DNA from: a virus
DNA length: 38,941 bases
IMG/VR virus record: IMGVR_UViG_3300042562_001413
Span: 1 to 38,941 of that record
Direction: 5' to 3' (one strand)
The notes beneath the pieces were generated by a model. That model was not told where the DNA came from. It was given only the letters and a program-made list of their open reading frames with translations, and made no database searches. Below, one piece after another: positions 1-32,325 of this stretch (the stretch's first letter is position 1; every line of letters begins with the position of its first letter). A program made the position numbers and the translations under genes.

Positions 1-3000
1 TAATCTTATTTTCTTTAATACTTACACCTTTAGGTAATGAATCAGTTTCATTTCTAGTAATAGTATATAATAAAGGTCCATTAATATTTGATTGTAAGTA
101 ATTATTAATAAAATCAGATTCTAATTCAGTTCTATTTAAACCAAATACTTTTTTAATACTTGTATCATCATTAGTTCTTAATGCTTTATTAGCAGTTTCA
201 ATTTGACTTAAATATGAATCCATTGTAAATGGACTTATAGCTTCTAGTAAAGATTCATAACCAAGTTGTAAGCCATCTTTGACCATTATATAATTGATTA
301 TAGATAAAGCATCATTCTTTGTCTCTAATGAACCGTATAGTTTAGCAAATGAATTTTGTAAGTCAACCTTTTGACCAGCATTTAAACTTCTAAATGTATT
401 AGCATTAAGTAAATTCAAACCAGATTGATTTTTAGAATCAGTGGCTTTTACACTTATTGCAAAATTATCCAAGAAGAAATTATTTTTACCTACTTCTGTT
501 GTACGTAATCTATCAACTATATCATTAATTGATTCATATCCACCACCAGGGTAAATTAGATTATTATTTAATGTTGCTACAGATTGTGGATCATTATTTA
601 ATTTATTTTGCTCATAAGCTTTTATAGTTAAATATGATAACAAGTCTCTTGAAATTTTTGCTTTGGTCTCTTCAGTAAATTCTATTGAATCAGAGTTAAT
701 ATTATCCAATAGTTTAGTAAGTATTGATTGGAAATTCTCACTAGCTGATAAAAATGTAGCTGGCAATAAATCATTTTTAATTTGATTAAATATTTCAAGA
801 TATTTTGATTGCCATGTTTTGCTTTTGTATATTGGATTTAAATCCATAATAGCATCTTTGTTAAACAACTTATCTATTTGTTTAGCCTTTTCATTTACTG
901 ATGCAATATCTTTACCTAAACCATTTGTTAATCCGGCTATAGCAGACATATTGCTTGTAAAGTCTTTAATCTTTACAGCATCTGAAAATAAATTTAATAT
1001 TGCAATCTTTTCATTATTGGTTACTTCTTCAAAACCATTAAATGCCTCTATTAAAAGTTTATCATTAACTTTAATTAATTCTTGAGAGTTTGCTTTTGCT
1101 TTTTTAATTAGTTCATTTAATGTACTATCTAAAATACTATTAACTCCCGGATCTAATTTATCTTTTTTATTTAATGCTTCAGAATATATATCTTGTATTA
1201 TTGGATTATTAATTAACAATAAAGATGTTTTAATAGGAACACCCAAAGCGGTTAAGTTAGCTACTACACCAAGAGCGTGTCTATTTAAACCAAGTTTAGC
1301 AACAAGACGTTCTTTAGCATTATCTGTAGCCATTGTAATCAATGATGAAATAATATCTTGTTTACGTAACCCTTGTAAACTATTTGGTAGTTGTTCTCTA
1401 GTTACTCCAAAGTCATCATAAGTAATACCGTTGACACTAATCTTTGGTCCCTTATCGTTTATTGTAATACCATACTCAGTTAATAAACTTAAGTATAAAT
1501 TTGGTAATACAATAGCTCCAATAGCAGCACCTTTGTTATTGGTAAATGCTTTTATTTTACCAATCATATTATTGATATCAATATTATCTTCTCTTGAACG
1601 TTCAAGTAATCCTGGTAATACTTCTTCTAATTCCTTTAATGAATCAGTTAATATATCTAAACTAGCAGCTGTATATGAAATTGGTGTTTCATTTTCATTT
1701 GTTGTTTCTGTTACACCTGTATTACCCATCAATGCATATTTGTAATCTAAAATAGCATTGTTCATTGGAGCTTCATATGGCTCACGGAATTTCTTTTTGT
1801 ACTCTAAGTATTGTTCTTTTGTAATAGGTAACCCTAGAATTTGTAAAGCTTTCATACCATTTTCTGATAGTCCTGCATCTGAAGCTATTTCTTGTTCAAT
1901 ATCTGTTACAGAATTTGCAATGCTTGATGCTTGAAGATTATTTTTATATAAATCCAATGCTTCAGCATATGTTGTTCCTGGCTGATTAACTTTTTCAGAT
2001 ACATACTTTAAATAATCTGTGTATTTACCTTCATCTGTAGTTTGTTTGCCATACTCATAGAATTTACCTTTCTCTTCATAGAACTCTTTAATCTGCATGT
2101 AAACTTTATCAATATCAAAATCCGCTCCTGATATCTCAATAAGTTCTTGAGCAAACATTGCTGATGAACCATAAAATGCAGGTAAGAAGTCAACATGTTT
2201 TACATTTATTGTAGAATGATTATCTTGAGATGGAATACGTACAGCAAACATTTTTGATAATAGCTCTGGAAAATTCATGCTACCATTTTCAACTAAATCC
2301 ATTATAGATTTAAAATGAGCTGGCATAAGCATCTCAGTATATCTTTCACCTGTAAACTTACCATTCTTATCATATTCTTTTACACCCGATCTTAAACGGT
2401 CAAGTATAACAATACCTTCTTTAGGAACGTTAATATCCTTCCAAGATCTTTCACCACCTATATTATTTGATTCTATAATATCAGGTTTATATTTATTTAA
2501 TTTATTAAAAACTTCTTCTCTTATAACTTCAGATCTATCAGGAATACCATTTTCATCAAAACTAAACACTCTTCTATAAACTTTAACACCAAAATCAGAT
2601 ACTAAAGCTACAGCATGTCCTGGTGCTTTTTCAGCAAGTGCACCTTTACTTAAATAACTTAAGAACAATTGCTCAAATTTATTTAAAGTAATAGGATTAT
2701 TTAAATCATATTTTTGTTCTCCATCTTGAGTTGAAAAGAACTCCAACAAATTACTACTTGCTTGAGATGCTTTAAGACCCTCAGTAGCATATCTTAAGAA
2801 TGCTGTTAAGTTAGGAGTCAATTTATTGTTTTGTTTAGAAATTGCAAGTTCTTGCATTCCTTTTTCAAAACTAAAAATTAAATTCCTTTTGTTTTTAAAC
2901 TTTAACTCAACTTTAGCTGAGGTAGCAAGATTGTATGCAGTTCTAATTTGACCTACAGTCATTCCTAAAGCTTCTACATATACACTATCTTTTTGTTCAG

Positions 3001-6000
3001 AAGTAACAATATTCTTTACTTGTGTTGGATCAATAACTTCTGTCTTATTTGAAGGAGTTAATACCTGAAGACCCATGTATTTTGCACTCAATGTACTATA
3101 ACCATTTGTAAATGAGCTAGTATTACCCAAATCACTTAATGGATTTACACGTTGCTTTAACATTTTAAGTGCACTTAATGGTGCAGCTATACTAATTGTA
3201 TCTTTAGTTTTCTCAATAGCTTCAAGTTTAACTCTTAAATTATGTAAGTCAACTTTAGTTTCTTTAGCTACAAAAGTTATATTTCCATTTTCATCTACTA
3301 CTTTATTAGATGTGAGTTGTGGAGTTAATACAAAAGCAGACATCTTAATAAATGTTTTACCATCACCATATACTAACTTTTTAGAGTTAAGCATACTACC
3401 CATATCAACATAACCATCTTGACCAAAATATTCTTCAGAAGAAATATCTTCACCAGCTTCAATTTTATCAATAAGTTTTGCTTGTGCAGGAGTAAGTTTA
3501 CCAAATCCAAACCACATATATCTAAATGCTTTTGTAGTCATCCACATCTGAGCATCTGATCTATTAATATTCTTTCCCGTTAAAGTAGAAACACCCACGG
3601 GTTCTTCTAAAGAAACTAAACTAATATCATCAACTGTATGCATCACACCTAAATCTTTTGCAGATATAGAAGTATAAGCACTATAGTATGCTGCATTCTG
3701 CATCTTAGCTCTTTTAACAGCATCAACTCCATCTTTTAATGTAATAGCTTGGTCACCCAAAAGAACATCATTTATAGAGGCTGTATTGATCCAGTCATTA
3801 AAAAATATTTGTTTTAAGTTATATTCTTTATCATAAGTAAGATTAAGTAATTCAGCTGACTCAATTAAATTTTGATCAGCTTTTCCTGTAGTAACTAAAC
3901 CTTTAGTAATACTTTTACCTAATTGATCTTCAATTTTTAAATCTACTAAGCCTTTAGAAAAGATATCATATTGACTTTCTAACTGAGTATTAACAATAGC
4001 TCTAAAAGCATTGGTAGTTACATTTAATTCTTTTAAAGCCTCCTTCAATAATGGAGCATCTTTACGTTTTGCAATTTCTTCTAAAGAAGCTTTTAATTCT
4101 GGAGTAAGTAATAAACCTGTATTTATTAATTGAAATGCTCTACCATCTTCAGTATTGTAACCAAGTTGAGTATTTTGATCAGCAGTTAAAGGATTTAACT
4201 CTCGTATAACTCTAGCAGATTCTTCTCTTCTGATTCTATCATACTCACTTTCAATATTATTTGTAAATGCATCTAGTATTTCATCAGTCAATACAACTTT
4301 ACCACCACCTGGTTTTTCAAACTTAACAGCTTTAACCACAGGTAGATACATTAAATCTCCAGTATTAGATGCTTCTAAAACTCTAATGAGAATTGGAGCT
4401 AATGCAGCTTTAACTGTTTTATTTAATTTGTCATCAAAGTATTCAACTGAATCTACTTTATTACTTTTAGTATTTAATAATGCAGTATATGTATTAAGTA
4501 TACTCAATGCAAATTCCTGTGGTGTATAATTACCATAAGTTGATTTATTAGATAGACCTGAGATTTTATCATTAAGTTCTTCTTCAGTACTATTAATTTT
4601 ACCAACACTACTTCCCGCTACTCTTAATACCTTTTGTCTATTTTCTGCAGACATTTGTATAAATGCATCGCTATTCAATAAGAAGTTATTAGCCAAGTAA
4701 GGATCAGAATCTTTAAGACGTTCTAATTCTGCTACATCATTTAACTCTTGTATTCTTTTTAAATGATAAGTAGGTAATTGATGAGCATATACTAAGTTAC
4801 CTTCAGGATTTTTGAATACAGATGCTCCAATTGTTTCATCAAACGGTGCATTTTGAATTGCTAATGTTCTAAGTCTAGAACTAGCTCCTGTTTCTCCTTC
4901 ACTAAAGATATCATTACCTTGTTGAATTAATTTATTTATTTCAAGAATATCACTATAGGTCATTGGTGTTTGTTCAGAATTAGCATTTAATAATGCTGCC
5001 TGTGCAACTGTAGGATTATTTCTTGATGATGCAATACTAAATGCAATAAACTGCTTACTTAACTTAATACCAGTAAGTCTAAAAATATCTTGTGAATATT
5101 TAGAAGATAACTCAGATAATTTTGGACCTGTAAGTTTTGTATCACTAGGTTTTAAATAACTTGCAAAATCTTCTAATATTTTAATAGTTTCATTTTTAAC
5201 TTTAGCATCAGATTTAATTTTCTTTTCGGCTTGACCCCAAGCTTGAGACCATGATTCTAATTGTGAATTAATATCATCTCTTTGAGCAGCAGAATAAATT
5301 AATACTGCACCAGCATTATCTCTTTGTACAAATAAGTAGTCTACTCTAAAGGTTGTAAATCCTTTTACAATAGATTGAAATAAAGAACCATTTTTAATCT
5401 CAGTAGGTAATGGACCTGACTCTAATAATGTATCAACAGATATGCCAAAGTCTTGCAATAATCTTGTTACAACGGCACCAGTTTGAGGATTATCTAATCC
5501 AAAGAAGTACATATTCTGTAACATCTTTTTAGGATCATCAATATTCTTAACAGCTTTTAATAATCCGTTATAAGCAGATACAAAGTTAATTGGAACAATT
5601 AGTTTTACTCCTGGCTTTAATTCTTTGTTACCAAAGTAATCTGTTTCCTCTATAGTTGTAGTAGCTAAGTAACTTCTTAATCCTTCAGATAAAGAACCAA
5701 ATCCACCAATCATAGAAGCATCCATGTTATATTGCTCTACATTTCTTAAACCAACTTGCTCTTCAAAATACTCGTTATTGTATTCTTCTTCCTGAGTTTG
5801 TTTAGTTATGATGTTTAATACTTTATAAACTTCAGATTTTAACTCATCAGAAAAATTATAAAACACGTCATTAATTTGAGGTAAAAATTTCTTTTGTTCA
5901 TCTGAAAGTTTTTGATTTGCTTCAGTTTCTTCATCATATAAAGCAGCAAAATCATTTAAAACATTTTCAAGTATGTCTCCGCGTTTAACATTTGGATCTT

Positions 6001-9000
6001 TTACTTTTGCAATTTCTTGTATATACATAGCTGCTATACTTGAAACCAAAGGTTCAGCAATAGCACTATCTAAGAAATAATATCCAATTTTATTGTTAGC
6101 ATTTTGTTCTGTATCATATGGTAGTAATGCATTAGCTTCTAATGATATACCAGTCATCAAACTAGTAACAAACTGATTTTGACTTATTGACGCATTTTTA
6201 AATTTACCTGCATCAATGTTTTCAAATAAAGTAAGTAATTCATTCTTAGTAAAGGATTTGAATACAGACTTAATCCACTCCATAATTCTAGTGAATAAAG
6301 ACTTAACAGTAGAATCTGTTTGAGTTGACTTTGCATTTGCTTTAAATTTTTCAAATTCATCAGCTAAATATTCTTCATAATATTCTTGTTCTAATCTTTC
6401 AGGGCTCATATTAGTATAAGTATTAGCTGAATTTCTGAATCTTTCTAACTCAGTTTTAAAGCTTTTACCTTCTGCTCTTAATTTTGCCCTTACTTCTTTT
6501 CTAGCAATTGCTAAATATTTTTTAATTTCTGCATCAGTTAATAACATTCTGAATACACCGTGGAATGCTTCATGATATTTAAATGGTGATTTAGCTCCAG
6601 TAAATAATGTACCATTAACAGTTAATCCTCCACCTATATTATTAAGGTTTAATACAAATGCTCCAACACGTACACCACCAGCTTTAAGATTATCAGCTAA
6701 TGTTTTAATATCTTCTAATGTTATAAAACTTGGAAGATTATCTGAAGTCCATGCTGTAAATACAGCAATATCTTCAGCATCAGTAATAGCATCTTCAACA
6801 GAAACTATCTTATTAGCTTCACTTTCTAATTTCTTTCTTTGAGCTAAAAGATCTTGATACTCTTTACTTTTTTGAGTAGCTACACGTTTAGCTGATCCAA
6901 CCAATCCTTCAGTAAGTTGTGCTTTAAGAGTTTCTAATTGTTCTTTAACAACTTCTAATTTATTTAATCTAACACCATTTCTTAATGCATTAATATCATC
7001 TACATTAATATCTTCAGGATTAATGTTTTCTGTATCAACAGTATTAGCTTTTTCTTCTTGTCTTCTTTTTTCTGCTTCAATTCTTTTTTCTGCTGCTTCT
7101 ATATCTAAAACAATTTCTGTTGGAACAAAAGCTGTTTGTTGAACTACAGGAATATTTCTAGCAGCTTGAATAGCTGAAGAATCTGCAGATAATTGAATTA
7201 CATTAGGAGACACTACTTGTGGTGCAACTTGCGTTGTTGTTTTATCAAGTATCTCTTGAACACCAGCCTCTCTTGAATATGAAGATCTAAAATTTGCAGC
7301 TGTAATATTTACATCAGCAGCAACTACTGCAGGTAATTCATTAAATTTATCTAATAATAATTTAACTTTATCATCAACTGATAGATCTTTATTTGAAATG
7401 TCAGTTTTATTTAATCTAACTATACCTATTTGTTTATTATTTGAATCAGAAATTTCTAATTCAATTTTACCCCATGGACTTACTTGTAAAGAAAGTCTAT
7501 AACCAGGTTTAGCACTTATAAATAATTCACTTCTTAATGCTTTGTTATAATCAATATTAAATCTTTTATCAAATTTTTCAGGATTTGATTCTGGATTATC
7601 AACTAAAGTTGTTTCAGCTCTATTTAATAATTCAAGGAACTTAGCATTTAAATCAATTGATTTAGCTTTTAAATTTGCTAAGGCATATGTTCCATCAGGT
7701 AATAATACTGCAGCTACATAGGCATCTGTCAAACTTGTAATACTATCTAACAATCCTTGTTTAGTTAAACTTTCTTCAACTCTATCTATTAGTTGTCTTC
7801 TTTCTTCACCTTCAAGATTAGATATAGCAACTTTAGTTCTTGCTCCTCCTTTGTTATTTTCTAATTGATAAATTAAATAATTACCTTCTTCATCAGCAGC
7901 ACTAAATTGTAAATCTACTAATGGCTTTGGAGATTTATTATACATTGTTACTCCTGGTTTAGAAATAAAAGATAAACCATTTGGTAATTCAGAAAATGGA
8001 ATAACTCCATCAGGATTATTTGCTACTAACTCAGGTAATGCAGAACTTAATAAATTATTTAATGCAAAGTTATTTTGAGCACGTTTTAAATCTTCTTCAC
8101 TATTTACATCCATTCCTGCAGGAACATAAACTATATTTTTATATTCTTCTACTGTCATGGTAGCTGGATTAATAACAGTACCCTGAGAATTAGTAATTAT
8201 AAAATTGGTATTTTGCATAAAACCAAAAACACCATTTAATGCATTACTTTTGTTTAAACCATTCTTTTCAATAGCAGCATCAATCTTAGCTTGTACAATA
8301 GGATTAGAAGTTCTAATTCCTACAGAGTAGTTTGCAGTTATTGTTTGAATATATGGATTTGCTTCTTTAAAACCAGGAATAATTAAATATCCATTGTTTA
8401 ATCCACCTTCAGGATCTAATGTAACAACTAATTCTAATTCATTAAGATCTTCAGGAGACAATACAGACATAACTAAGTTATATCTTGCAATTGCTTGTTC
8501 TGGACTTTCTAACCATTGATTAGTAACAGCATCTTTATTTCTGTATGCATAAGGTTGAATAGGTTCATTTATATTCAATCTACTAACGCTTTGCGGTAGT
8601 ACTTTAAGATCTAAATCTTGAATACTAAATGATGCTTTAAATTCACCAGGCATTACATTAATGGTGGCTTTTTTAGTTTCTTCTATTGAAGGACTGATTT
8701 CATCAGATGGTACTACTAATAATTTACGTTCAGTACCAATTTGTTTTGGTTGACTTACTACAATAAATTCTTTACCTGTTTGATCATAGACAAGTTGACC
8801 ATAGTTTAACTCTACATCATCAAAAACAAATGTAGTAATATCTGGTGCTGCACCATCAATAGCTTTTTGTATAGATAATGCTTTAACTTTGTCACTTTCA
8901 ATAAAGATACCAAATGCAGGAACACCAAATCTATTTAATGTTTCTTCATCTAATGGTTGCTTATATTGATCAACCAATTGATATGAAGTACTTATATTCC

Positions 9001-12000
9001 CTTCTGAGTCAACAGTCTTTAGTTCAATTAATGAAACAGCATTACCTTTCTTAACTATTGTTATATTCTTATTTCCTTCAACAGCTTCTCCTTCACTAGG
9101 TAACGATTCAGTTTGGCCTGTAATATCATCAATAGTTAATCCTAATGCATTAACAACGTTCTGTACTAAGTCATTTGTTTTACCTTCTTGACTTTGTAAC
9201 CATGGTATTAACCCAGATTCATTTTGAATTTCTACTTCAGTTAACGGGTTATTTGGATTTACTAATGTATCATTATCAATCCAAATTTTCTTAACAGCAA
9301 TAAATGCAACTCTATGATTTTTACCATCTTCACTATTGATCCATTTATCTAAAGTGATTGGTTTTTTACCAGCAACAGTTTGTTTAGCTGCATATTTAGC
9401 ATAGGCTTTTTTCATTGTATTATCTAATACAACTGAATCTTTAACTGAAACTTCAATGTTTATATCAGCTAATATATCATCTACATCAGACCTACTTTCT
9501 TCTGCTACTTCTTCATCTGTTTTAACTTCTTCTATTTTTTTATCAGGTCTAGTTTGTTCATAGTCATTTAATAATGCTTGTATATCTTCTAGATCTTGTC
9601 TGTCTAAAATACCTAATTGTTCACCTTTTTGATTATAAAATATTTTTAAATATTTGGTGTCTCCAGTTTCTAAAAACATTTGCATTTGCTCATTATTGGG
9701 AATAAATCCTGCTTTTGCAATTTGATTGGCTAATTCATTTCTTTCAATTATACCAATATAATCACTTACTTGTTGTTCAAATATTGATTTTCTGTTTTTG
9801 TATTGTTCTTTTAATACTTCAGATGTTCTTTCAAATACAAGATCAAACTTTTGAGGATCATTTAAATACTCAATTGCTTTATCATAAAGTTTAGCTCTAC
9901 CTTGTAATGCAGTATAATCTATAATTTGTTTTAATGCAGCATCAATATTATCTTTATTTACAAATGTACCAGATGTTTGAGCCATATGTTTAATATAATT
10001 TTCAAATTCTTTTCTGAGTGCACCCATTTTTCTTTTATCAAAAGAACCATCTTTAGTTTGATTTTCTAGTAATACATTTTTAAATGCGGATAATCTTTCT
10101 TTTTTGTCTGTTTTTTCTTTTATTTTGCTTTTATTACTTTTATCTCCATCTAAAATTTTAATTTCCTCAGTTAAAAATGCTATTTCTTTATCAATAGATT
10201 CTTGATCTAACAATACAGTTAAATCACTTGCTGCCATTTTATCAAACAATGGATCAGATGCTAAACTTTGATATATACTATTTGATCTTTCTAATGCTCT
10301 AGTGAATCCATCTTGAGTGAACATATAAAGATATCTAGCATGCTCAAATGCAATTTGTTTTATTTTTTCTTCTACGTATTGTCTTGAATCTTTTTCATAA
10401 GCTTCAGGTATAAATGGATTTGGATATCTATCTTTTGATTGACTATATACTTCTTCAGTTTTGTCAATTTGATTGACCATACTTTGAAGACGTTCTCTAA
10501 TCTTTCCATTCTTAATATCTTTTTTGCTTGAAGGAAAAGCTGTAGCTAAATCTTCATCAGACATTTTCATATAATCAAGTAATTGATCTTGAAATAAAGC
10601 AGCACCACCAGAAACTAATACAGTATGTATTTGATTAAATTTAGCAAAATCAGTTTCATCAGTAAAATAAAATCTATCCATAGCAATAGATGCTAATGTC
10701 TTTCCCTGAGCTGCTGCCTTTTGTTGTAGAAAATTAAATCTTTTAGGATCAAAAATTGAACTTGGATCTTGTGCTTGTGCATTCCAAACAGCGTTGTAAG
10801 TATTAACTGTAGATTTAACTAGGTTATCTCTTTTTTGTTTATACTCAGCATACTTTTCTGGATCAGAAACTCTTTGATATAAAGCAGGTACACCTTGGAA
10901 AAATAATTTTTGCGGTATAGAAACTATACCACCCATTAAAAATCCTGACATAAATGTTTCAAATCCTTGAGCTGAAACTTGTTGACCTAATCCAGCTTTA
11001 ACTGAAGCATTAAACAATTCAGGTCCTCCATTCATTGGATCTTTTAATACGGAAGTATAATAGTTTTTAGTACCCGATGAAATAGCTTCCTGAGAAAGTT
11101 CTTGTACACCCTCTCCTAAATTTGCTGCAAAATATCTTAATGAACCCTGACCTAATTTTGTTAAATTACCTTTAACTCCTGCATTAGCAAGTCTTGTGGC
11201 TAATCCTTTAAGTCCTGTACCAGCATCTTTAAATGGAGATAATGATTTTACACCATCTTTTCCAACAGTTTGTGCAGTTTTAATAATTCTACTACCAATA
11301 CCTTTTGCTTGTTCATTAAATATTCTACCCAATGATTTGTTAAAACCTCCTAATGAATTACCTAAAACTAATTTATTAGTCAAGTATATTACAGGCATGT
11401 TTGTCATTGTAGTTGCAAATGCAGCTTTGTGTGCATTATTTTGAATATCTGCAACTTGTTCTGTAGTAACCGGGTTACCATTATTTTCAGCAAATTTAAT
11501 ATCCATACCATCTTTAACCAATTGATTATAGACCATACCTCCTTCAAGTTTACTTTCTGATAATGCTAAATTTAAAGCTCTAGCATCTCTATAAAATGCT
11601 CCAGCATACTCAGATGCTTTAGCCATATTAGTTAAGTTTTGTGCTACTACTTCTGTAGTTTTTAATCTTTTAACAGCAGCTAATGTTTCAGGTGCAAATA
11701 TTCCAGCAGTCATTTTACCACCAGCTCTGGCAATAGACCAAAAATCTTTTGCTGCATCAACACCTTTTAATGCAGTCATCATTCCTCTACCTGCACTATA
11801 GAGTCTACCAACTGTAGTAGCTTGACCAATACTTCTTACTAGTCTTTCAGCATTAGCTGTAGTTCTTGTTGCTAATAATGGAGTAGCACCACCAAATGTT
11901 CCTACTTCTAAAGCCGCTAATGCTAATTCTTCTGCTGCAATTGAACCAATAATACCTACTGTGTATGCAGAATTTAATAATAAATTATTTGTAAAACCTA

Positions 12001-12694
12001 AAGCACCTCCTCTAGTTGAATTACCAATTGCCATTGCATCTTCAAACTCATTAGCAGATTTTAAATCTGTTGTCATTGATTCACCAGTAAACATAGATCC
12101 AATAGATCTATATCCACCCATAAATCCTGTTCCGGTTAAACTTCCAAACTGACCCCACATTCTACTCATATCATCATAGATGGTTGAGTTAGCATTATAG
12201 TATGCTTCATTATCTGCAAATGGTTTCCATCCTAATTTTTGAAATTCAGGATGCTCATAATAACGCATGAAATTACTTTGCACCATTCCCGCAAAAGCAG
12301 GAGCAGCTACACCTGTTCCAGGCGCAATATTTCCTTGACTTTTTTGAAAACCTGCTTTTACATTTTGTTCTACTATTCTTTCAAATCCACCCGGTTCATT
12401 TATATTTGGTGGATTTTGTTGAAGAACCGGATCAAATGTATTAGAAGATAATGTAGGTCTTCTTGCGGCTGCATTTCCATTTGATCTAATTCCTGTTGTA
12501 TCAATTAATGGCTTTAATGCATCAAGTTGTTGTAACTGTGCTAAATCTATTCTGCTCATAAGAGCATTATTTTCTTCACTATCAAACATATCCATTACAG
12601 GTTGAAATGAATTATCTTTTGGAATAACACTTTCTGTAACTTGATTATTTAAAATTGTTTGATCTAAACTGTTATTTTCAATTTGATTTTCCAT
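1..12694 (-). CDS. Giant virion RNA polymerase with zincin domain (3' end outside window)
   Basis: Open frame of at least 4231 codons from ATG at 12694 to the left edge; no stop codon seen. Residues 1-600 hold Ala/Gly-rich hydrophobic stretches (about 236-273, 420-443, 576-598) and 680-1010 look helical and charged. HEAFH at 2041-2045, with a Glu-rich helix near 2098-2106 that could give the third zinc ligand, marks a zincin-like metallopeptidase. RIPSQ at 3486-3490 is followed 39 residues later by DFDID at 3525-3529, in the context SGADFDIDK. DFDID is the metal-binding motif of the crAss-like virion RNA polymerase (phi14:2 gp66), and the pair resembles RxPT...NADFDGD of bacterial beta prime. 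A Lys/Gly segment near 3105-3125 may belong to the other double-psi barrel. It is the last gene seen in the cargo block. It probably enters the cell with DNA and transcribes early genes. The polymerase call is firm; peptidase activity is inferred from the motif only. Confidence 0.88.
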   Translation of the reverse strand, partial: MENQIENNSLDQTILNNQVTESVIPKDNSFQPVMDMFDSEENNALMSRIDLAQLQQLDALKPLIDTTGIRSNGNAAARRPTLSSNTFDPVLQQNPPNINEPGGFERIVEQNVKAGFQKSQGNIAPGTGVAAPAFAGMVQSNFMRYYEHPEFQKLGWKPFADNEAYYNANSTIYDDMSRMWGQFGSLTGTGFMGGYRSIGSMFTGESMTTDLKSANEFEDAMAIGNSTRGGALGFTNNLLLNSAYTVGIIGSIAAEELALAALEVGTFGGATPLLATRTTANAERLVRSIGQATTVGRLYSAGRGMMTALKGVDAAKDFWSIARAGGKMTAGIFAPETLAAVKRLKTTEVVAQNLTNMAKASEYAGAFYRDARALNLALSESKLEGGMVYNQLVKDGMDIKFAENNGNPVTTEQVADIQNNAHKAAFATTMTNMPVIYLTNKLVLGNSLGGFNKSLGRIFNEQAKGIGSRIIKTAQTVGKDGVKSLSPFKDAGTGLKGLATRLANAGVKGNLTKLGQGSLRYFAANLGEGVQELSQEAISSGTKNYYTSVLKDPMNGGPELFNASVKAGLGQQVSAQGFETFMSGFLMGGIVSIPQKLFFQGVPALYQRVSDPEKYAEYKQKRDNLVKSTVNTYNAVWNAQAQDPSSIFDPKRFNFLQQKAAAQGKTLASIAMDRFYFTDETDFAKFNQIHTVLVSGGAALFQDQLLDYMKMSDEDLATAFPSSKKDIKNGKIRERLQSMVNQIDKTEEVYSQSKDRYPNPFIPEAYEKDSRQYVEEKIKQIAFEHARYLYMFTQDGFTRALERSNSIYQSLASDPLFDKMAASDLTVLLDQESIDKEIAFLTEEIKILDGDKSNKSKIKEKTDKKERLSAFKNVLLENQTKDGSFDKRKMGALRKEFENYIKHMAQTSGTFVNKDNIDAALKQIIDYTALQGRAKLYDKAIEYLNDPQKFDLVFERTSEVLKEQYKNRKSIFEQQVSDYIGIIERNELANQIAKAGFIPNNEQMQMFLETGDTKYLKIFYNQKGEQLGILDRQDLEDIQALLNDYEQTRPDKKIEEVKTDEEVAEESRSDVDDILADINIEVSVKDSVVLDNTMKKAYAKYAAKQTVAGKKPITLDKWINSEDGKNHRVAFIAVKKIWIDNDTLVNPNNPLTEVEIQNESGLIPWLQSQEGKTNDLVQNVVNALGLTIDDITGQTESLPSEGEAVEGNKNITIVKKGNAVSLIELKTVDSEGNISTSYQLVDQYKQPLDEETLNRFGVPAFGIFIESDKVKALSIQKAIDGAAPDITTFVFDDVELNYGQLVYDQTGKEFIVVSQPKQIGTERKLLVVPSDEISPSIEETKKATINVMPGEFKASFSIQDLDLKVLPQSVSRLNINEPIQPYAYRNKDAVTNQWLESPEQAIARYNLVMSVLSPEDLNELELVVTLDPEGGLNNGYLIIPGFKEANPYIQTITANYSVGIRTSNPIVQAKIDAAIEKNGLNKSNALNGVFGFMQNTNFIITNSQGTVINPATMTVEEYKNIVYVPAGMDVNSEEDLKRAQNNFALNNLLSSALPELVANNPDGVIPFSELPNGLSFISKPGVTMYNKSPKPLVDLQFSAADEEGNYLIYQLENNKGGARTKVAISNLEGEERRQLIDRVEESLTKQGLLDSITSLTDAYVAAVLLPDGTYALANLKAKSIDLNAKFLELLNRAETTLVDNPESNPEKFDKRFNIDYNKALRSELFISAKPGYRLSLQVSPWGKIELEISDSNNKQIGIVRLNKTDISNKDLSVDDKVKLLLDKFNELPAVVAADVNITAANFRSSYSREAGVQEILDKTTTQVAPQVVSPNVIQLSADSSAIQAARNIPVVQQTAFVPTEIVLDIEAAEKRIEAEKRRQEEKANTVDTENINPEDINVDDINALRNGVRLNKLEVVKEQLETLKAQLTEGLVGSAKRVATQKSKEYQDLLAQRKKLESEANKIVSVEDAITDAEDIAVFTAWTSDNLPSFITLEDIKTLADNLKAGGVRVGAFVLNLNNIGGGLTVNGTLFTGAKSPFKYHEAFHGVFRMLLTDAEIKKYLAIARKEVRAKLRAEGKSFKTELERFRNSANTYTNMSPERLEQEYYEEYLADEFEKFKANAKSTQTDSTVKSLFTRIMEWIKSVFKSFTKNELLTLFENIDAGKFKNASISQNQFVTSLMTGISLEANALLPYDTEQNANNKIGYYFLDSAIAEPLVSSIAAMYIQEIAKVKDPNVKRGDILENVLNDFAALYDEETEANQKLSDEQKKFLPQINDVFYNFSDELKSEVYKVLNIITKQTQEEEYNNEYFEEQVGLRNVEQYNMDASMIGGFGSLSEGLRSYLATTTIEETDYFGNKELKPGVKLIVPINFVSAYNGLLKAVKNIDDPKKMLQNMYFFGLDNPQTGAVVTRLLQDFGISVDTLLESGPLPTEIKNGSLFQSIVKGFTTFRVDYLFVQRDNAGAVLIYSAAQRDDINSQLESWSQAWGQAEKKIKSDAKVKNETIKILEDFASYLKPSDTKLTGPKLSELSSKYSQDIFRLTGIKLSKQFIAFSIASSRNNPTVAQAALLNANSEQTPMTYSDILEINKLIQQGNDIFSEGETGASSRLRTLAIQNAPFDETIGASVFKNPEGNLVYAHQLPTYHLKRIQELNDVAELERLKDSDPYLANNFLLNSDAFIQMSAENRQKVLRVAGSSVGKINSTEEELNDKISGLSNKSTYGNYTPQEFALSILNTYTALLNTKSNKVDSVEYFDDKLNKTVKAALAPILIRVLEASNTGDLMYLPVVKAVKFEKPGGGKVVLTDEILDAFTNNIESEYDRIRREESARVIRELNPLTADQNTQLGYNTEDGRAFQLINTGLLLTPELKASLEEIAKRKDAPLLKEALKELNVTTNAFRAIVNTQLESQYDIFSKGLVDLKIEDQLGKSITKGLVTTGKADQNLIESAELLNLTYDKEYNLKQIFFNDWINTASINDVLLGDQAITLKDGVDAVKRAKMQNAAYYSAYTSISAKDLGVMHTVDDISLVSLEEPVGVSTLTGKNINRSDAQMWMTTKAFRYMWFGFGKLTPAQAKLIDKIEAGEDISSEEYFGQDGYVDMGSMLNSKKLVYGDGKTFIKMSAFVLTPQLTSNKVVDENGNITFVAKETKVDLHNLRVKLEAIEKTKDTISIAAPLSALKMLKQRVNPLSDLGNTSSFTNGYSTLSAKYMGLQVLTPSNKTEVIDPTQVKNIVTSEQKDSVYVEALGMTVGQIRTAYNLATSAKVELKFKNKRNLIFSFEKGMQELAISKQNNKLTPNLTAFLRYATEGLKASQASSNLLEFFSTQDGEQKYDLNNPITLNKFEQLFLSYLSKGALAEKAPGHAVALVSDFGVKVYRRVFSFDENGIPDRSEVIREEVFNKLNKYKPDIIESNNIGGERSWKDINVPKEGIVILDRLRSGVKEYDKNGKFTGERYTEMLMPAHFKSIMDLVENGSMNFPELLSKMFAVRIPSQDNHSTINVKHVDFLPAFYGSSAMFAQELIEISGADFDIDKVYMQIKEFYEEKGKFYEYGKQTTDEGKYTDYLKYVSEKVNQPGTTYAEALDLYKNNLQASSIANSVTDIEQEIASDAGLSENGMKALQILGLPITKEQYLEYKKKFREPYEAPMNNAILDYKYALMGNTGVTETTNENETPISYTAASLDILTDSLKELEEVLPGLLERSREDNIDINNMIGKIKAFTNNKGAAIGAIVLPNLYLSLLTEYGITINDKGPKISVNGITYDDFGVTREQLPNSLQGLRKQDIISSLITMATDNAKERLVAKLGLNRHALGVVANLTALGVPIKTSLLLINNPIIQDIYSEALNKKDKLDPGVNSILDSTLNELIKKAKANSQELIKVNDKLLIEAFNGFEEVTNNEKIAILNLFSDAVKIKDFTSNMSAIAGLTNGLGKDIASVNEKAKQIDKLFNKDAIMDLNPIYKSKTWQSKYLEIFNQIKNDLLPATFLSASENFQSILTKLLDNINSDSIEFTEETKAKISRDLLSYLTIKAYEQNKLNNDPQSVATLNNNLIYPGGGYESINDIVDRLRTTEVGKNNFFLDNFAISVKATDSKNQSGLNLLNANTFRSLNAGQKVDLQNSFAKLYGSLETKNDALSIINYIMVKDGLQLGYESLLEAISPFTMDSYLSQIETANKALRTNDDTSIKKVFGLNRTELESDFINNYLQSNINGPLLYTITRNETDSLPKGVSIKENKI

Positions 12695-12735: not shown

Positions 12736-15700
12736 TTAATTTTTTCTGCCTTTAACTGCAGAATTTCTATTATAATCCTCTAAGTTTAATTGCCTTTTAA
12801 TTTCAAATGATTCTTGTAATTTTCTTACTTGTTCATCAATTGATTGAGCTGCATTAAAAGAACTCATTTCTATTGGAACTTGTTGCCAATCACTTGTATT
12901 ATAAGTTCCATTAGGTTGATAAGTACTATATTTATATGTAGCATAAAACTGATCAGTTCCTGTTTTTACAATTCTATATGATGCAGTTGGTGTCATACCA
13001 TCTACTCCAGGATAATTATATTCTACAAATTTTTCAGGACTAGCTTCAATAGCTGACAACGTACTTGAATAATATTGATTACGTTCTGATCTAGGATTGA
13101 TATCTTGTTTTTTATCAAACACCATACTAATTCCATTTTGTAATTGATCTACTTCAGATTTGCTAAATAAACCATATTCTCCTGCAGCACCAGTTGCTTC
13201 TGTTACTGAACCTTTAACTTTACTTGATAACCATTCATTAAATCCATCAATAGTATAACCAGCTGTAGTTTTATCACCTTCTCCTGCAGGACCCATTGTA
13301 CCAGAATATATAATGTTTGCTCTTGGTGTAATACCCGCTGTATTACTACGTTTAGGATTACCTAACCATGTTGTCATATCTGATATATATGCATTATATG
13401 CTTTAGTAGCTAATGCATCATTAACTATAGATTTACTATCTTTTTTATCTGATAAATTACCAAGTACCATTGTATAGCCACCACCTTGTGAATCTAACAT
13501 CTTTTTTTGAGTAATCATTTGAGCTAAGGTAGCTTGACCTTCTGATGTAGCAGATAAAGGATCTATGATAGCTTTATAAACTGGTGATATAGTCATATCA
13601 GAAGCACCAGTTCTTCCATACAAAGTACCTTTAAATGTTCCTGTTTCAAATTTATCACCAAGATGTCCTGTTAAAGCACTATTAGTTTTTGCTTTAATTT
13701 TATCATATACTAAACCAGCTTCAGCTTCAATAGCAGCTTTATCTAATTCGGTAACTGTTGTCATACGTTCTCTTTGTTCAGTACCACCTTGACCATCTCT
13801 AACAGTATAATATTGACCTGTACCTTTTTTAACAGTATGCATATACTTGCTATTACTAGTACCAGTATCCCATCCAATTAAATCTATATTTTTAACTTTT
13901 CCTTGATTAATAAGTGATATTACATTATTAATATATTCAGGTTTAGTTAATTCACGTTGTACACCACTAGGAAGTGTTTTATATATTCCCGGCATACCTG
14001 CATTTTCCATTAAAGATTTAACGTTAGCATCTTCACCTTTAACTAATTCTATAGCTTTATCATGAGTATTTTTATATTTATTAGATACAGTTTGAAATGT
14101 TTTATCAAGTACTTCAATTGTTGTATTAAGACCTTTATCAGAATATATTTGTTTATACAAATCATCATAAGTTTTGGTCTTACCTTTACCTGGATACTTA
14201 GCCATTTGTTTTGGATCATCTAATATTTTAGATTGTTGTTGATACAAATTATCTATATCAGATGCATATATATAATTACCCTTTTCGTCTTTTGTACCAA
14301 GTTTATTTTTTATTTGATCAATTGTTCCTATAAAATCTTTACCTTCCACTTTTACTGTATACTTTTGTGTAGGTTTACCAGAATTATCTATATCTCCTGC
14401 AGGATTTAAAAATGTTAATACATTAGTTAAAACATTAAGTTGTTTATCTCTAGCTTCGTTTCTTGGTTTATCATAATCAATAATTAATTTAGTATACATT
14501 TCTGTATTTGGATCAGGCAATCCATCTGGACCTACTTTAAATTCTGTATTTCTAGCATCGCCAATAGAAGCTTCACCACCTAATAATGTATTTAATAAAG
14601 GATTTTGAGATACAAGTTCACCTTTTGCTTTTGCCAATTCAAAATCAATTGAACCTTTAATATTAGCTAACTCAATTGCATTTAAATGTTGTTGTGTAAC
14701 TTTAGCCATATCAAATTGAAACTGCTTTTGTTGTTTAGCATACTCATTAACTTTCATAGTATACTCCATATCTCTAGCACCATAAGCTTGAGCAGCAGCT
14801 TGCATATCTTTAGCTATATTATTTTGCATTAAAAGATTATAAGCTTTATTTAATGTTCCTTCAAAATCTTTAACGGGTGCATTAGCTGTTTTTTGAATAT
14901 TAAACTTTGCATCTAAAGCTGCTTTAGTAGCTTCATAAGATGAACGTTCTGCAAGCATTGCTTTTTCATCATCTGAACCCGGAACAACACCATTACTTAT
15001 TTTATAGTTATCCCATCTAACATTTACATCTTGAGCATTAGCTAAAGCTTTTATATCTTTCTTTAAATAATATTCATTTTGTTGATTAATTCTATTAATA
15101 GTTTCAGATGCCCAAGCAGCTTGACCTTCTTCTTTAGTTGCAAATATTCCATTAGCCATACCTTCTGCAGCAAAATCTCTACCTCTTACAAAAGCTTGAT
15201 TTTGATAATGTCTAACAACTCTTGGATCATCTAATAAAGCTTTTTGAATATATTGTAATGCAGGACCAGTAACTAAATTACCATTCTGTTCTGTAATAAT
15301 CCAATCAGTATTTACTGTACCATTGGGATTCATACCATAATGATCTACCTTTACTTTTAAAGGAGGTTTCATTGCACCTAATGTTTCTTGTGCTAATTCA
15401 AATAAATCAGCATCTTCAACAAACTTAGGTAATCCCATTTTAATTGCTTTATCAGGAGAAGAGTTAATAAAATCCTCCATATGATATTGTAAACCTTTTA
15501 CTCCATCTTGAGAATATTTTTCTCTTTGCTTTTGATCAGGAGAATCAATAAGTCTATTTGCATAATCCATTTCTTTTCTATAGTTAGAAGTATGCATTAT
15601 ATCACTAACTATTAAATCATCTTCAAAAAATGGAGCGAACACTGACTTAGCAGAATCTGCATTTTGTGCCAATGATAAATCCATCCCTGAGATCTTCTCT

Positions 15701-15924
15701 AAAGATGGAGCTAATTGATTTATATATTGGTCTCTTTGTTCTTTGGTATCTGTTCTAGACAAATCTGCATAGACAACTTTATTGTAAAGATCATTAGTTG
15801 CCTTCCAATTAGTATTATACTTATCTGTTCTGACATCAAGTACAGCAGACAAAAATTTATAGTCTGGTGTAAATGGTTTAATGTCGGGTAAATATGTTTC
15901 TGCTCCTGGTACGTATGTTGCCAT
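12736..15924 (-). CDS. Putative internal virion (cargo/ejection) protein, 1062 aa
   Basis: Complete frame from ATG at 15924 to TAA, placed directly before the giant polymerase gene with a 41-base gap. There is no signal peptide or membrane segment. The N-terminus is Pro/Tyr-rich (YVPGAETYLPDIKPF). Residues about 250-480 are rich in Ala, Gln, Lys and Glu and look strongly helical or coiled-coil. The second half is mixed and soluble, with many Lys, Asp, Gly and Thr residues. No catalytic motif was recognised. Its size, helical character and position between tail and polymerase genes match the capsid-internal cargo proteins of crAss-like phages, which play the part of T7 gp15/gp16. The role is inferred from position, not from a recognised domain. 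A large structural scaffold protein would be an alternative. Confidence 0.7.
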   Translation of the reverse strand: MATYVPGAETYLPDIKPFTPDYKFLSAVLDVRTDKYNTNWKATNDLYNKVVYADLSRTDTKEQRDQYINQLAPSLEKISGMDLSLAQNADSAKSVFAPFFEDDLIVSDIMHTSNYRKEMDYANRLIDSPDQKQREKYSQDGVKGLQYHMEDFINSSPDKAIKMGLPKFVEDADLFELAQETLGAMKPPLKVKVDHYGMNPNGTVNTDWIITEQNGNLVTGPALQYIQKALLDDPRVVRHYQNQAFVRGRDFAAEGMANGIFATKEEGQAAWASETINRINQQNEYYLKKDIKALANAQDVNVRWDNYKISNGVVPGSDDEKAMLAERSSYEATKAALDAKFNIQKTANAPVKDFEGTLNKAYNLLMQNNIAKDMQAAAQAYGARDMEYTMKVNEYAKQQKQFQFDMAKVTQQHLNAIELANIKGSIDFELAKAKGELVSQNPLLNTLLGGEASIGDARNTEFKVGPDGLPDPNTEMYTKLIIDYDKPRNEARDKQLNVLTNVLTFLNPAGDIDNSGKPTQKYTVKVEGKDFIGTIDQIKNKLGTKDEKGNYIYASDIDNLYQQQSKILDDPKQMAKYPGKGKTKTYDDLYKQIYSDKGLNTTIEVLDKTFQTVSNKYKNTHDKAIELVKGEDANVKSLMENAGMPGIYKTLPSGVQRELTKPEYINNVISLINQGKVKNIDLIGWDTGTSNSKYMHTVKKGTGQYYTVRDGQGGTEQRERMTTVTELDKAAIEAEAGLVYDKIKAKTNSALTGHLGDKFETGTFKGTLYGRTGASDMTISPVYKAIIDPLSATSEGQATLAQMITQKKMLDSQGGGYTMVLGNLSDKKDSKSIVNDALATKAYNAYISDMTTWLGNPKRSNTAGITPRANIIYSGTMGPAGEGDKTTAGYTIDGFNEWLSSKVKGSVTEATGAAGEYGLFSKSEVDQLQNGISMVFDKKQDINPRSERNQYYSSTLSAIEASPEKFVEYNYPGVDGMTPTASYRIVKTGTDQFYATYKYSTYQPNGTYNTSDWQQVPIEMSSFNAAQSIDEQVRKLQESFEIKRQLNLEDYNRNSAVKGRKN

Positions 15925-15983
15925 AATTGTAAATTACTAAAATTTATTAAGTTTAACAAGATAAATCATAAAACTTTTAAAGT

Positions 15984-18335
15984 TTATGCTCCCATCTTTC
16001 CTGTATAGAATGGCACCACCATTCTTTTTATTTCTTTTCCTGATTTACTCTGAGTCTGTGGATAACCTATTGGAGCACCTCTTCTTTGTGCCTCTAATTG
16101 TGCATTAGTTATATCAGGATCAATTGCTGTTTGTCCTGGAAATAATTTATTAATAAGAGCATCTGGCATTGGTTTACCCGTTTGTCTTTCATAATCAACA
16201 ACTTGATCATAAAAGTTTTTAATTAAATCAGGTTGTTTACCTACTTTTTGAAGAGCTTTAGCACCTTTAAATCCAATAATACCTCCAGTTGTAGGATCAA
16301 TTGAATAATTATCATATATTGAATTTAAATTAGCTGTATTAGCTCTATTAGTAAGTGCAGCATTAAATAATTCATTCTCTTTACCAATCTTCCAATTTTG
16401 AAAGTTATCACTAGATTGCAAAGTCTTTTGAGTATCATCATAAACTTTCATATTTCTAGCTTGATTGATAGCATCAACTTGCATATTCAATTGTGATTGC
16501 ATTGGAGCTACTTGATTCATTATACGCACATTATTGGTATTGACATTATTAATACCTTGAGCAATGTTATCCATAGCCGTACCTTGAATATTTGAAGCAG
16601 CAACAGCTTGTGGTCCACCGACAGCACCTAATGCTTGAGCCATAGTATTTGCAGCTGCTAAATTTGCATTAGCATTACCTCTCCAATCATCTAATACATA
16701 ATCTACTTTAGCTGGTGCAGCATCTGGTGCCCATGGTAAATATAAATTATCATCAATTAAACTTAATGCATTTAGATTATTAACATCTTGTCTCCACCAT
16801 TCTGGTTGAGGTGGCATATATTCGTTAACTGGTGGAACTTCTAAAGGAGTTTTTGATACTGGTGGAACATTACTATTAATTGTAGCATTACTAGGTTGTA
16901 TATCACCTAGTTTAAAACGTGGTGTATTGTATGTACGTAATCCTAATTTACTATCAAATCCTTCACCCTTAACATAACCTTTATCACCTTTTTCTTTAAA
17001 GTAAGGTATATAATTATCAAGATTACCAAATGCAGCAATGTGTTCTTTTTTTCTAGTATCTTCAGCTTTTCTTTGAAACTGTCCCCACTGAGGAGCATCT
17101 GGATTATCATAATCAAATCCTGGTATTGTTGCTACAACATCTCCCCATCTATCATAAAAATCAGCTTTTGATTCTGGTAAAGCAATATCTGCAGAACCAT
17201 ATGCATTTCCAATTCTATTTTGAAATTCAGGTCTATTACCTTGTGATAATCTACCATATTTATATAAACCAATAGGACTTTCATTCATTGCTTTTTCTTG
17301 ACCCATAAGATCTTCACCATAAATAGATACAGAACCTTGTCCTTTTTGATTTTGACTTGAAATTTTTTCTTTTCTTAATTGAGCTTCTTTATCTGCTTTA
17401 AATTTAGGAGTTTCTTTACCATCTTGATACATTCCTATTTCTTTACCATATCTTGCCATTTCCTCATTATCCATAACATCTTCATCAGCCATAGCTAATT
17501 GTTGTTCTTGCATTGAAGGATCTTCAAAAGACTGTTCTTGCTGAGGTTGTTGTTGATCCATCTGTGCCATCATTTCTTGTAACAATATTAATTGTTGTTG
17601 TTGATCAGGAGGCAAAGCAGCAAAGGCTTTCATCTGAGCTTGCTTCTTAGTAATGTTTTCCACCTTAGCAGTAAACTCAATTGGATCTTCTCCAATAGAA
17701 ACTAAGTATGGATGAGCCGCTAAAGGTACACCATCATCAAATTTCTTTTTAAGTTCTTGACCAAATGCTAACTTAGACAAACCCATCATGTTTTTCTTTA
17801 ACATAATCTCAGAACTACGCGCTGTTATCTCATCAGCAAATTGATCTTTCATAGTACCATAGTACTTATTAAGATCATATCTTTTAGATACTTGAGCAGG
17901 AGTCATTTTTAATTTAGTCTCTATACCATACTCAGTAAGCTCTTCTTGATTAAATCTCATCTTATCTGTATCAGAATAGATAAAAGATTGTTCTGGTAAA
18001 AACATTGGCACACCACCTTTAGAGTGTCTTGGTCCTGTTATATTATACAGACCAAATTGATTGTCATTGTTTAAATCAGTTAATACCGTTTCACCACCCT
18101 CAGCTTCAATATTTGCTTTGTCTCTAGGTACGCTAGATAAACTGTATCTAACAGATTCATCTCTTGTGGTATTTATATTAGCATTATTATAATACTCCTG
18201 TGGTAAAGTAACTAATCCATAACCAGCTTGATCACCAGTTACATAACCACCTTCTCTCATCATTTGATCTTCTTCTACTTTACCATTAACTAATTTAAAG
18301 CCTGCAGGTAAACTATTTATTTTAATTTTTGCCAT
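15984..18335 (-). CDS. Putative crAss-like cargo protein with GG motifs, 783 aa
   Basis: ATG at 18335 lies two bases after the TAA of the upstream 570-residue gene, so the two are probably translated together. Short GG motifs occur at residues 29-30 (REGGY), 80-81 (AEGGE) and 107-108 (SKGGV). The segment about 70-130 (GGETVLTDLNND, then GPRHSKGGVPMFLPE) is of a type I recognise from crAss-like virion proteins. Residues about 240-290 are very Gln-rich, with runs of QQQQ and repeated QEQ. A region near 520-545 is Pro-rich, and the C-terminal third is Asn/Gln/Ala-rich and helical. No enzyme motif was found. The role as a capsid-internal or ejected protein is inferred from its neighbours. The 59-base gap after it holds only a weak AT inverted repeat. 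Confidence 0.68.
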   Translation of the reverse strand: MAKIKINSLPAGFKLVNGKVEEDQMMREGGYVTGDQAGYGLVTLPQEYYNNANINTTRDESVRYSLSSVPRDKANIEAEGGETVLTDLNNDNQFGLYNITGPRHSKGGVPMFLPEQSFIYSDTDKMRFNQEELTEYGIETKLKMTPAQVSKRYDLNKYYGTMKDQFADEITARSSEIMLKKNMMGLSKLAFGQELKKKFDDGVPLAAHPYLVSIGEDPIEFTAKVENITKKQAQMKAFAALPPDQQQQLILLQEMMAQMDQQQPQQEQSFEDPSMQEQQLAMADEDVMDNEEMARYGKEIGMYQDGKETPKFKADKEAQLRKEKISSQNQKGQGSVSIYGEDLMGQEKAMNESPIGLYKYGRLSQGNRPEFQNRIGNAYGSADIALPESKADFYDRWGDVVATIPGFDYDNPDAPQWGQFQRKAEDTRKKEHIAAFGNLDNYIPYFKEKGDKGYVKGEGFDSKLGLRTYNTPRFKLGDIQPSNATINSNVPPVSKTPLEVPPVNEYMPPQPEWWRQDVNNLNALSLIDDNLYLPWAPDAAPAKVDYVLDDWRGNANANLAAANTMAQALGAVGGPQAVAASNIQGTAMDNIAQGINNVNTNNVRIMNQVAPMQSQLNMQVDAINQARNMKVYDDTQKTLQSSDNFQNWKIGKENELFNAALTNRANTANLNSIYDNYSIDPTTGGIIGFKGAKALQKVGKQPDLIKNFYDQVVDYERQTGKPMPDALINKLFPGQTAIDPDITNAQLEAQRRGAPIGYPQTQSKSGKEIKRMVVPFYTGKMGA

Positions 18336-18337
18336 AG

Positions 18338-31746: not shown

Positions 31747-32307
31747 TTATACTGCTAGTGTAGAAAATAGTATTTCAATTGGTTTACATGATGATGAGTT
31801 ACCCACATTTACCACTTTTACTTTATATGCTGTACTAGACAAAAGATTTGTTATTGTAAAGTTAAATATGGTTGGTACAATTGGTGCAGGATTAGCTAAA
31901 ACCCAAGTGGTAGGAGCTATCTGAGTATTATAATAAATGTTTACTCCAGTGCTTCCACTCCAAGTACCATTCCATAATACTGATACACTATTACTTGTAA
32001 TAACACCCGCATATACATTGAATGGATCATGTGGTAAATCATTAGATGTACATGCTCCTAAACCATTAGATACTATCATAGCAAATTTTTGAATAATAGA
32101 ATCAAGTCTTTCACCTTTAGCTATTTGTAATAATGACCCTGCAGAACCTATTTGAAAAGAGGTTCCACAATAACTAACACATTCTGCACATTGTATATCA
32201 TCACATCTTTCACTACCAACACTACAGTCAGTATATGTACATGGACTTGTTAATGCTGTATCAGCACAACCACAATTACTACTACATTTTGAACAATTAC
32301 ATGCCAT
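31747..32307 (-). CDS. Cys-rich N-terminus plus FN3-like domain, putative virion surface protein, 186 aa
   Basis: The first 47 residues hold eleven Cys in a metallothionein-like spacing: C3, C5, C8, C12, C14, C23, C28, C35, C40, C43 and C47. A short helix (KGERLDSIIQKFAMIV) follows and resembles the DTISDVTAKLATLVC segment at the start of the 752-residue neighbour. The last 95 residues form a fibronectin type III-like beta sandwich ending STAYKVKVVNVGN...FSTL. The gene lies 18 bases after the vWA gene and before a strong terminator, so the pair ends one transcript. No signal peptide is present, which fits a virion protein made in the cytoplasm. It could be a head or tail decoration or fibre-associated protein. 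The Cys cluster could bind metal, since disulfides are unlikely in the cytoplasm. The function is inferred. Confidence 0.65.
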   Translation of the reverse strand: MACNCSKCSSNCGCADTALTSPCTYTDCSVGSERCDDIQCAECVSYCGTSFQIGSAGSLLQIAKGERLDSIIQKFAMIVSNGLGACTSNDLPHDPFNVYAGVITSNSVSVLWNGTWSGSTGVNIYYNTQIAPTTWVLANPAPIVPTIFNFTITNLLSSTAYKVKVVNVGNSSSCKPIEILFSTLAV

Positions 32308-32325
32308 CTTTATATTTTATTTAAA

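Follow-up and report, generated by a model that had tools for sequence, protein, structure and literature searches.

Introduction

The closest described counterparts of the giant protein analysed here are the virion RNA polymerases gp66 of phage phi14:2 and gp50 of phage crAss001 (6vr4). They share with it the DFDID motif and homology over the polymerase core, and they carry a cysteine at the C-terminal tip, as do relatives of the giant. Each of them is, however, the product of a separate gene, starting with MACK or MSKRC, whereas the polymerase studied here is fused behind a cargo module and a zincin-like domain and has no cysteine at the junction. A further separate protein, crAss001 gp47 (2341 aa, annotated as 'RNA polymerase subunit'), carries the motif HEAFH at residue 2157, near its C-terminal end, and this end aligns to residues 2040-2168 of the giant (BLAST of modules). 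It is encoded convergently and ends with ...LRCNS, while the giant has no end at this point.

Giant ORFs with the order cargo, HExxH, and DFDxD in one frame of 4460-5443 aa are found in the Suoliviridae (cr1_1 gp76, cr10_1 gp32, cr118_1, and cr7_1). Their order is that of the window giant, but they belong to another family, are distant in sequence, are in some cases TAG-recoded, and carry no annotation beyond hypothetical protein or DNA helicase. Annotations at odds with TAG recoding were seen for cr7_1 gp32 (L043, NC_055895, 5539-21870), which has 148 in-frame stops under table 11, and for a Bohxovirus record (L038, PV686213), which is annotated as short fragments.

In N4-type virion RNA polymerases (gp50) and the polyvalent zincin proteins, a virion polymerase is chained to an HExxH domain and is free of cysteine; self-processing has been proposed (PMC5512222). 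Unlike the window giant, the N4-type enzyme is a T7-like single-subunit polymerase, has its zincin after the polymerase, and forms a single link devoid of tip cysteines. Thermus phage P23-45 gp96, a structural protein of 5002 aa, unites a two-barrel virion RNA polymerase with a DFDGD motif and a metallopeptidase (PMC10770324). In this case, the polymerase is at the N-terminus of a long-tail tape measure protein, unlike in the window giant. The presence of a virion RNA polymerase and a metallopeptidase in one chain is already known from N4 and P23-45 (PMC5512222, PMC10770324). Giant multidomain transcription proteins have also been described in PMC7886860, the main text of which does not mention a protease.

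A giant ORF in the window

The window, the complete 38,941-base stretch that was analysed, is a whole IMG/VR record from a crAss-like phage. A giant ORF runs on its minus strand from an ATG at position 12694 to position 2; it comprises 4231 codons and has no stop before the contig end. In its reading direction this gene is the last one, and its 3' end is off the contig. According to the original prediction, HEAFH (residues 2041-2045) and DFDID (residues 3525-3529) are part of a single uninterrupted frame of at least 4231 codons. This was confirmed, with both motifs at exactly these residues. The features are listed below.

2..12694, minus strand: giant cargo-zincin-polymerase ORF, 4231 codons, 3' end cut, zero cysteines
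7145..12694, minus strand: residues 1-1850, putative gp47/gp67-type cargo module (from its location ahead of the zincin and from homology at its zincin-proximal end)
6860..7144, minus strand: residues 1851-1945, indel-rich and probably a linker/coiled coil, most variable part of the giant (relatives' alignment)
6170..6727, minus strand: residues 1990-2175, zincin-like domain (motif and conservation; in the AF2 model, HEAFH and the EE pair on two different helices)
6560..6574, minus strand: HEAFH, residues 2041-2045, putative zinc ligands and general base
6353..6376, minus strand: EEYLADEF, residues 2107-2114, with invariant E2107/E2108, A2111, and F2114; putative third ligand
2..6157, minus strand: residues 2180-4231, predicted gp50/gp66-type virion RNA polymerase module, C-terminus truncated
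1355..3991, minus strand: residues 2902-3780, profile-aligned to phi14:2 gp66 (6vr4 chain 818-1649; E=2.3e-60; Foldseek 1.3e-8)
2108..2122, minus strand: DFDID, residues 3525-3529, predicted catalytic metal-binding motif
12736..15924, minus strand: upstream 1062-aa ORF, zero cysteines, no terminal cysteine

At least 27 relatives of the giant were found in a scan of IMG/VR, 17 of them full-length and stemming from independent metagenomes. Among the matches listed, each of the 17 full-length relatives has an ORF of 4462-6253 codons, free of interruptions, that contains both HE[AG]FH and DFDID. The fact that every one of them retains both motifs in one frame indicates that the frame in the window is real and did not arise by chance. 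The two motifs are about 1470-1560 residues apart in 16 of the 17; the exception is L031 (9122-27880), with a giant ORF of 6253 aa, large insertions, and a single cysteine near the C-terminus. Judged from the relatives, the window giant lacks about 250-320 C-terminal residues. A relative with 53% identity (L364, WLWP01000004.1) sits in a MAG labelled Pseudomonadales and is probably a binned phage contig, with the host unproven.

Column identity in the alignment of the relatives is about 81-85% in the zincin block (residues 2001-2150), 84% around the catalytic motif, and about 50-65% over most of the cargo. The sole long indel-rich linker, residues 1851-1945, is N-terminal to the zincin and is probably disordered or a coiled coil. 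A DNA-level search of the window against phage records gave no match, and Pfam and PHROGs scans with the whole giant and with the zincin domain returned no informative family.

Polymerase module and domain order

A profile of residues 2900-3780 matched exactly one solved structure, that of phi14:2 gp66 (6vr4), with E=2.3e-60; the match spans about 880 residues and begins at residue 818 of the chain. The AF2 model of this stretch, which has a pLDDT of 59 and a low overall TM-score, also retrieved 6vr4 by Foldseek (E=1.3e-8, probability 1.0). Residues 3443-3535 match crAss001 gp50 in tblastn, and when modules were compared by BLAST, residues 2921-3538 matched gp50 930-1496. The DxDxD catalytic motif is present in a conserved context. 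An N4-type (Schitoviridae) identity was rejected, as this is a DxDxD polymerase homologous to gp66 and not a T7-like single-subunit enzyme.

In the Suoliviridae-type giants, gp66 residue 82 aligns about 106 residues after HEAFH (profile-profile alignment, probability 100%, E ~4e-121). Giants of the window clade are collinear with the Suoliviridae-type giants across zincin and polymerase, again by profile-profile alignment. Because the gp66 profile begins at this distance from HEAFH and the giants are collinear, we assign the module order cargo, zincin-like domain, and gp66/gp50-type polymerase to the window giant. The polymerase is predicted to be of the two-barrel type, with both double-psi beta barrels in the same polypeptide. 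A cargo protein fused to a complete gp66-type polymerase which starts just after the zincin had been predicted. The profile alignments and the 6vr4 match bear out the fusion, the position of gp66 residue 82 bears out the polymerase start, and nothing polymerase-like was found before residue 2041. The overall reading thus stands with respect to the fusion and the polymerase start but has to be revised on two points. By homology, the zincin is assigned to the cargo module, since its counterpart is the C-terminal end of gp47 in crAss001 and of the homologue in Dulem virus 41, and the fusion proved not to be unusual.

Fused and separate genes in crAss-like phages

Three arrangements of the genes for gp47, gp50, and gp49 are found in known crassviruses. 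All three are separate in crAss001, Dulem 41, DAC15, and phi14:2. In cr3_1, crAss002, and cr127_1, gp47 is separate and gp50 is fused with gp49. The third arrangement, gp47 fused with gp50 and gp49 separate, is that of Suoliviridae including cr1_1, cr10_1, cr118_1, and cr7_1 and of the window clade. Among the matches listed, about 100 of 193 polymerase clusters, dereplicated only at 90% core identity, are fused. Cargo-polymerase fusion is therefore a common state among crAss-like phages and not peculiar to the window phage. The tree used for the comparisons below was computed with FastTree from about 400 columns and has many weak forks; ORF starts were set to the first ATG. Five loci (L113, L218, L210, L254, and L227) were considered as fused or undefined giants and rejected, being N-extended polymerases. 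In two of these (L113 and L218), gp47 is encoded on the other strand.

Cysteines at gene breaks

The window giant has no cysteine in 4231 residues, while about 34 would be expected if it had the cysteine content of the other ORFs from these loci; the window shows only the cysteine-free part of the protein, its C-terminus being cut off. All full-length giants of the clade (17/17) have exactly one cysteine, which is located at position -2 to -4 from the C-terminus. In all 11 cases examined, the downstream gp49-type protein (1876-1991 aa) likewise contains a single cysteine, at residue 3-4, and the same holds for the gp49-type protein of L364, which is from a separate collection.

Cysteines at gene breaks were counted in the 193 clusters listed. 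A cysteine is present at both facing ends in 54 of 59 gp47|gp50 breaks and in 152 of 157 gp50|gp49 breaks, compared to 0 of 56 control pairs of adjacent genes from the same loci. Random interior 12-mers contain a cysteine in 1.2% of cases, and interior cysteines per 1000 residues amount to 1.0 in the cargo chain versus 8.0 in other ORFs. For the polymerase ORF (clusters listed), an N-tip cysteine occurs in 83 of 86 cases with an upstream break versus none of 81 fused cases, and a C-tip cysteine in 154 of 157 cases with a separate gp49 versus none of 15 with a fused tail and no gp49 seen as a protein of its own. The outer end of gp49 has a cysteine in only 3 of about 130 cases. A tip cysteine usually lies 1-4 residues away from the C-terminus or 3-6 residues away from the N-terminus.

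The pattern can be followed in described phages. In phi14:2, the last residue of gp67 is its only cysteine, gp66 carries two, at residues 3 and 2179 of its 2180, and the single cysteine of gp65 is residue 3. In crAss001, gp47 has one (residue 2339 of 2341) and gp49 has one (residue 5); the N-tip tryptic peptide of gp50 which contains the cysteine is CITTNSTIEELAAK. On the tree, the tip-cysteine trait shows at least 12 changes, always together with a break, and the informative contrasts all point in one direction (sign test, p ~0.008).

Many of the breaks are only 2-60 nt, with stop and start codons close to each other, and the end cysteines might accordingly be a DNA-level signal around these codons without any function in the protein. 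In phages with a convergent gp47 on the opposite strand, the C-tip cysteine is still present (13/13), and the rule thus follows protein order and not neighbouring DNA. Furthermore, other adjacent genes of the same loci lack the pattern (the 0/56 given above) and the nucleotides at the breaks are not conserved. We consider such a signal extremely improbable and have rejected a nucleotide-signal origin, as it is contradicted by the convergent gp47.

The four apparent fused exceptions, L348, L355, L360, and L328, start with MSC, MAC, or MKC; because the protein preceding each of them upstream ends in a cysteine, these represent breaks inside the cargo with a cysteine on both sides. The N-tip cysteine missing in crAss002 is explained by an internal MSC start. 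There are a few breaks where one or both cysteines are lacking (L203, L061, L154, L159, and others), some of which look like introns, frameshifts, or mis-chosen starts. In bajarodcaudo virus 1 (L037, PQ006092, 13860-22043), the polymerase gene is interrupted inside DFDxD beside an endonuclease gene; this interruption is probably an intron, and the break has no tip cysteines. Possible further splits were seen in L345 and L096, involving a polymerase broken past the catalytic motif or a gp49-type protein ending in NCK, with cysteines at the new ends.

As read from the sequences, the predicted ejected series gp47→gp50→gp49 is nearly free of cysteine save one on each side of a break, and fusion removes both. 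Within the literature searched, we found no description of a cysteine or disulfide pattern in ejection proteins, nor of a zincin in crAss-like phages, although a zincin may be mentioned by Yutin 2018 or Drobysheva 2021. The cysteine rule thus appears to be new, whereas the polymerase family gp66/gp50 was already known.

Cysteine content was also inspected in other proteins. In the window, the three ORFs just upstream of the giant (12736-20050; 1062, 783, and 570 aa) have zero cysteines, which is consistent with these being ejected proteins. The 1062-aa ORF has no terminal cysteine, and the chain is therefore not extended upstream in the window phage. Two ORFs at 31747-34584 contrast with the cysteine-free cargo: one of 186 aa with 13 cysteines, which starts MACNCSKCSSNCGC, and one of 752 aa with 27 cysteines. 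Among other phages, N4 gp50/51/52 (L361), T7 gp16 and part of gp15 (L362), and P22 gp7/16/20 (L363) are free of cysteine. Avoidance of cysteine may be general among ejected proteins, with tip cysteines so far seen only in crassviruses.

The zincin-like domain

Residues Y2040, H2041, E2042, and H2045 and, about 62 residues further on, E2107, E2108, A2111, and F2114 are invariant in 23 sequences, down to 15% identity; the invariance was confirmed with 20 rows. An AF2 model of residues 1960-3060, of moderate confidence (pLDDT 68), places HEAFH and the EE pair on separate helices. This model gave no significant match in Foldseek, Pfam has no family near the cut-off for the zincin-like domain of the window, and a profile search of solved structures with this domain returned a weak similarity to FtsH/YME1. 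By motif, spacing, and conservation, residues 1990-2175 are classified as zincin-like, and the peptidase function is putative.

The distribution of the domain is uneven. Among the clusters listed and with corrected labels, it is kept in 114 of 115 clusters where cargo-zincin sequence and polymerase are in one polypeptide versus 15 of 49 where the neighbouring gene is separate and complete. In the tree contrasts for fusion and zincin, 4 to 0 are in the same direction, but there are few independent changes and the result is not significant (p ~0.12). In some lineages, the gene break is upstream of the zincin, so that the zincin remains with the polymerase. HEAFH is intact in the already separate proteins of crAss001, cr112_1, and Dulem 41, and the phi14:2-like clade has lost the zincin motif. 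The view that HExxH simply decays after a gene split is only partly true, as some Steigviridae and Intestiviridae keep the motif near the C-terminal end. Among those listed, 20 fused clusters (including L087, L093, L101, L109, L112, L119, and L121) have HExxE (HEAFE, HEIFE, or HEVGE), with the downstream Glu and the rest of the site kept, which suggests an altered metal site rather than decay. In one fused giant (L072), the zincin domain is missing; a low-complexity linker at about residues 1410-1760 of this ORF seems to replace it.

These data bear on the possibility that the giant is a polyprotein which the zincin cuts at or near the cargo/polymerase junction, be it inside the cell, within the particle, or once ejected, yielding equivalents of gp47 and gp50. 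The zincin is exactly at the boundary, is as conserved as the catalytic core, and has the biased distribution given above. Self-processing has been suggested for polyvalent phage proteins with zincin domains, and cleavage of P1 DdrB precedes its packaging (PMC5512222). The N4 virion RNA polymerase, which also has an HExxH domain, is however packaged unprocessed (PMC5512222). HExxE is found in 20 fused clusters and the domain is absent from one, which speaks against an internal protease being essential to the fused form, while the split phages crAss001, Dulem 41, and cr112_1 keep HEAFH. Region 2110-2170, in which the cut had been proposed, has no long linker, the only one being residues 1851-1945. 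A cut yielding equivalents of gp47 and gp50 would leave ends devoid of tip cysteines, unlike those of any genuine split. We rejected the idea that cutting a fused junction is the sole role of the zincin, since split phages keep the domain and some fused ones lack or alter it. Cleavage of the junction by the zincin is possible but not obligatory, and we regard the polyprotein as an unlikely though serious explanation.

Fusion might instead do no more than fix the stoichiometry and the order of ejection, which has been proposed for P23-45 and N4, with the protein staying whole and the zincin being host-directed or structural. This would agree with P23-45 gp96, which unites virion RNA polymerase, metallopeptidase, and tape measure in 5002 aa (PMC10770324), with the N4 polymerase, which stays intact together with its HExxH domain (PMC5512222), and with the retention of the rest of the site in the HExxE variants. 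It would be odd for a host-directed effector, however, to be found beside the polymerase with either partner gene and to be dispensable in the zincin-less split clade. We doubt that plain fusion accounts for the data, without dismissing it.

Proposed ejection as a single thread

We favour, with some reserve, the view that the ejected cargo is one N-to-C thread whose parts are joined either by fusion or by reducible cysteine links. It starts from what was observed, namely the fusion, the homology, and the end-cysteine pattern. Large proteins would be carried in the head and injected ahead of the DNA, with the window ORF encoding one link. The links would be coupled head to tail through pairs of tip cysteines, in the simplest case by a disulfide that forms in the particle, and the continuous thread would leave via the narrow tail in a fixed order. 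The host cytoplasm would then reduce the couplings and release the polymerase. In the window phage, gene fusion would replace the bond between cargo and polymerase, and the polymerase C-terminus is expected to carry a cysteine for the next link, which is of gp49 type. A thread free of other cysteines would avoid wrong cross-links while the couplings maintain the order. As a weaker element, the zincin beside the junction of fused forms may free the polymerase by proteolysis after ejection. The covalent bond, its redox release, and the release by the zincin are the parts that we infer.

The corresponding full version is a covalent train with tip disulfides head to tail which are released by redox and are evolutionarily interchangeable with fusion, the zincin then taking over release. 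We put it forward tentatively; it is plausible but falls slightly short of what we would call probable. Disulfides between subunits are known at the portal vertex and in the tail of crassvirus virions, which also contain gp47, gp49, and gp50 (PMC10172136). crAss001 gp45 is thought to exit N-terminus first, and large cargo must partly unfold at constrictions under 50 Å (PMC10172136). A point against a disulfide thread is that the phage is assembled in a reducing cytoplasm, so that the bond would form late.

The tip cysteine pair could alternatively be a binding site for a metal, a cofactor, or an enzyme. The two cysteines may constitute a non-covalent or metal-mediated dock (bridging by Zn, or a thiol modified by a phage protein) which orders the cargo during packaging. 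The comparative pattern gives the pairing of ends and not the chemistry, and the loose position of the cysteine (1-4 residues from the C-terminus, 3-6 from the N-terminus) fits several side-chain chemistries. Two cysteines alone are a poor metal site, however, and no conserved His or extra Cys was noticed beside them; moreover, other virion proteins of crassviruses are known to be linked by disulfides (PMC10172136). We consider such a dock distinctly unlikely. Ligation or intein-type splicing at the ends was rejected, since we noticed no intein domain, and a cysteine whose place shifts by several residues speaks against backbone chemistry.

Implications of the proposed thread for crassviruses and N4-like phages

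The thread would bear on the question of how several copies of enzymes of 150-500 kDa leave the head in order through tail constrictions under 50 Å. This question concerns the crassviruses, which are among the most abundant human gut viruses, and the N4-like phages. The cysteine rule would provide a specific and falsifiable answer, a chain with reducible couplings. It would set the chain order as gp47→gp50→gp49 and would flag which of the encoded proteins are links. The giant fused ORFs may then be regarded as the same chain, with peptide bonds in place of the couplings, and the zincin would be given a testable job.
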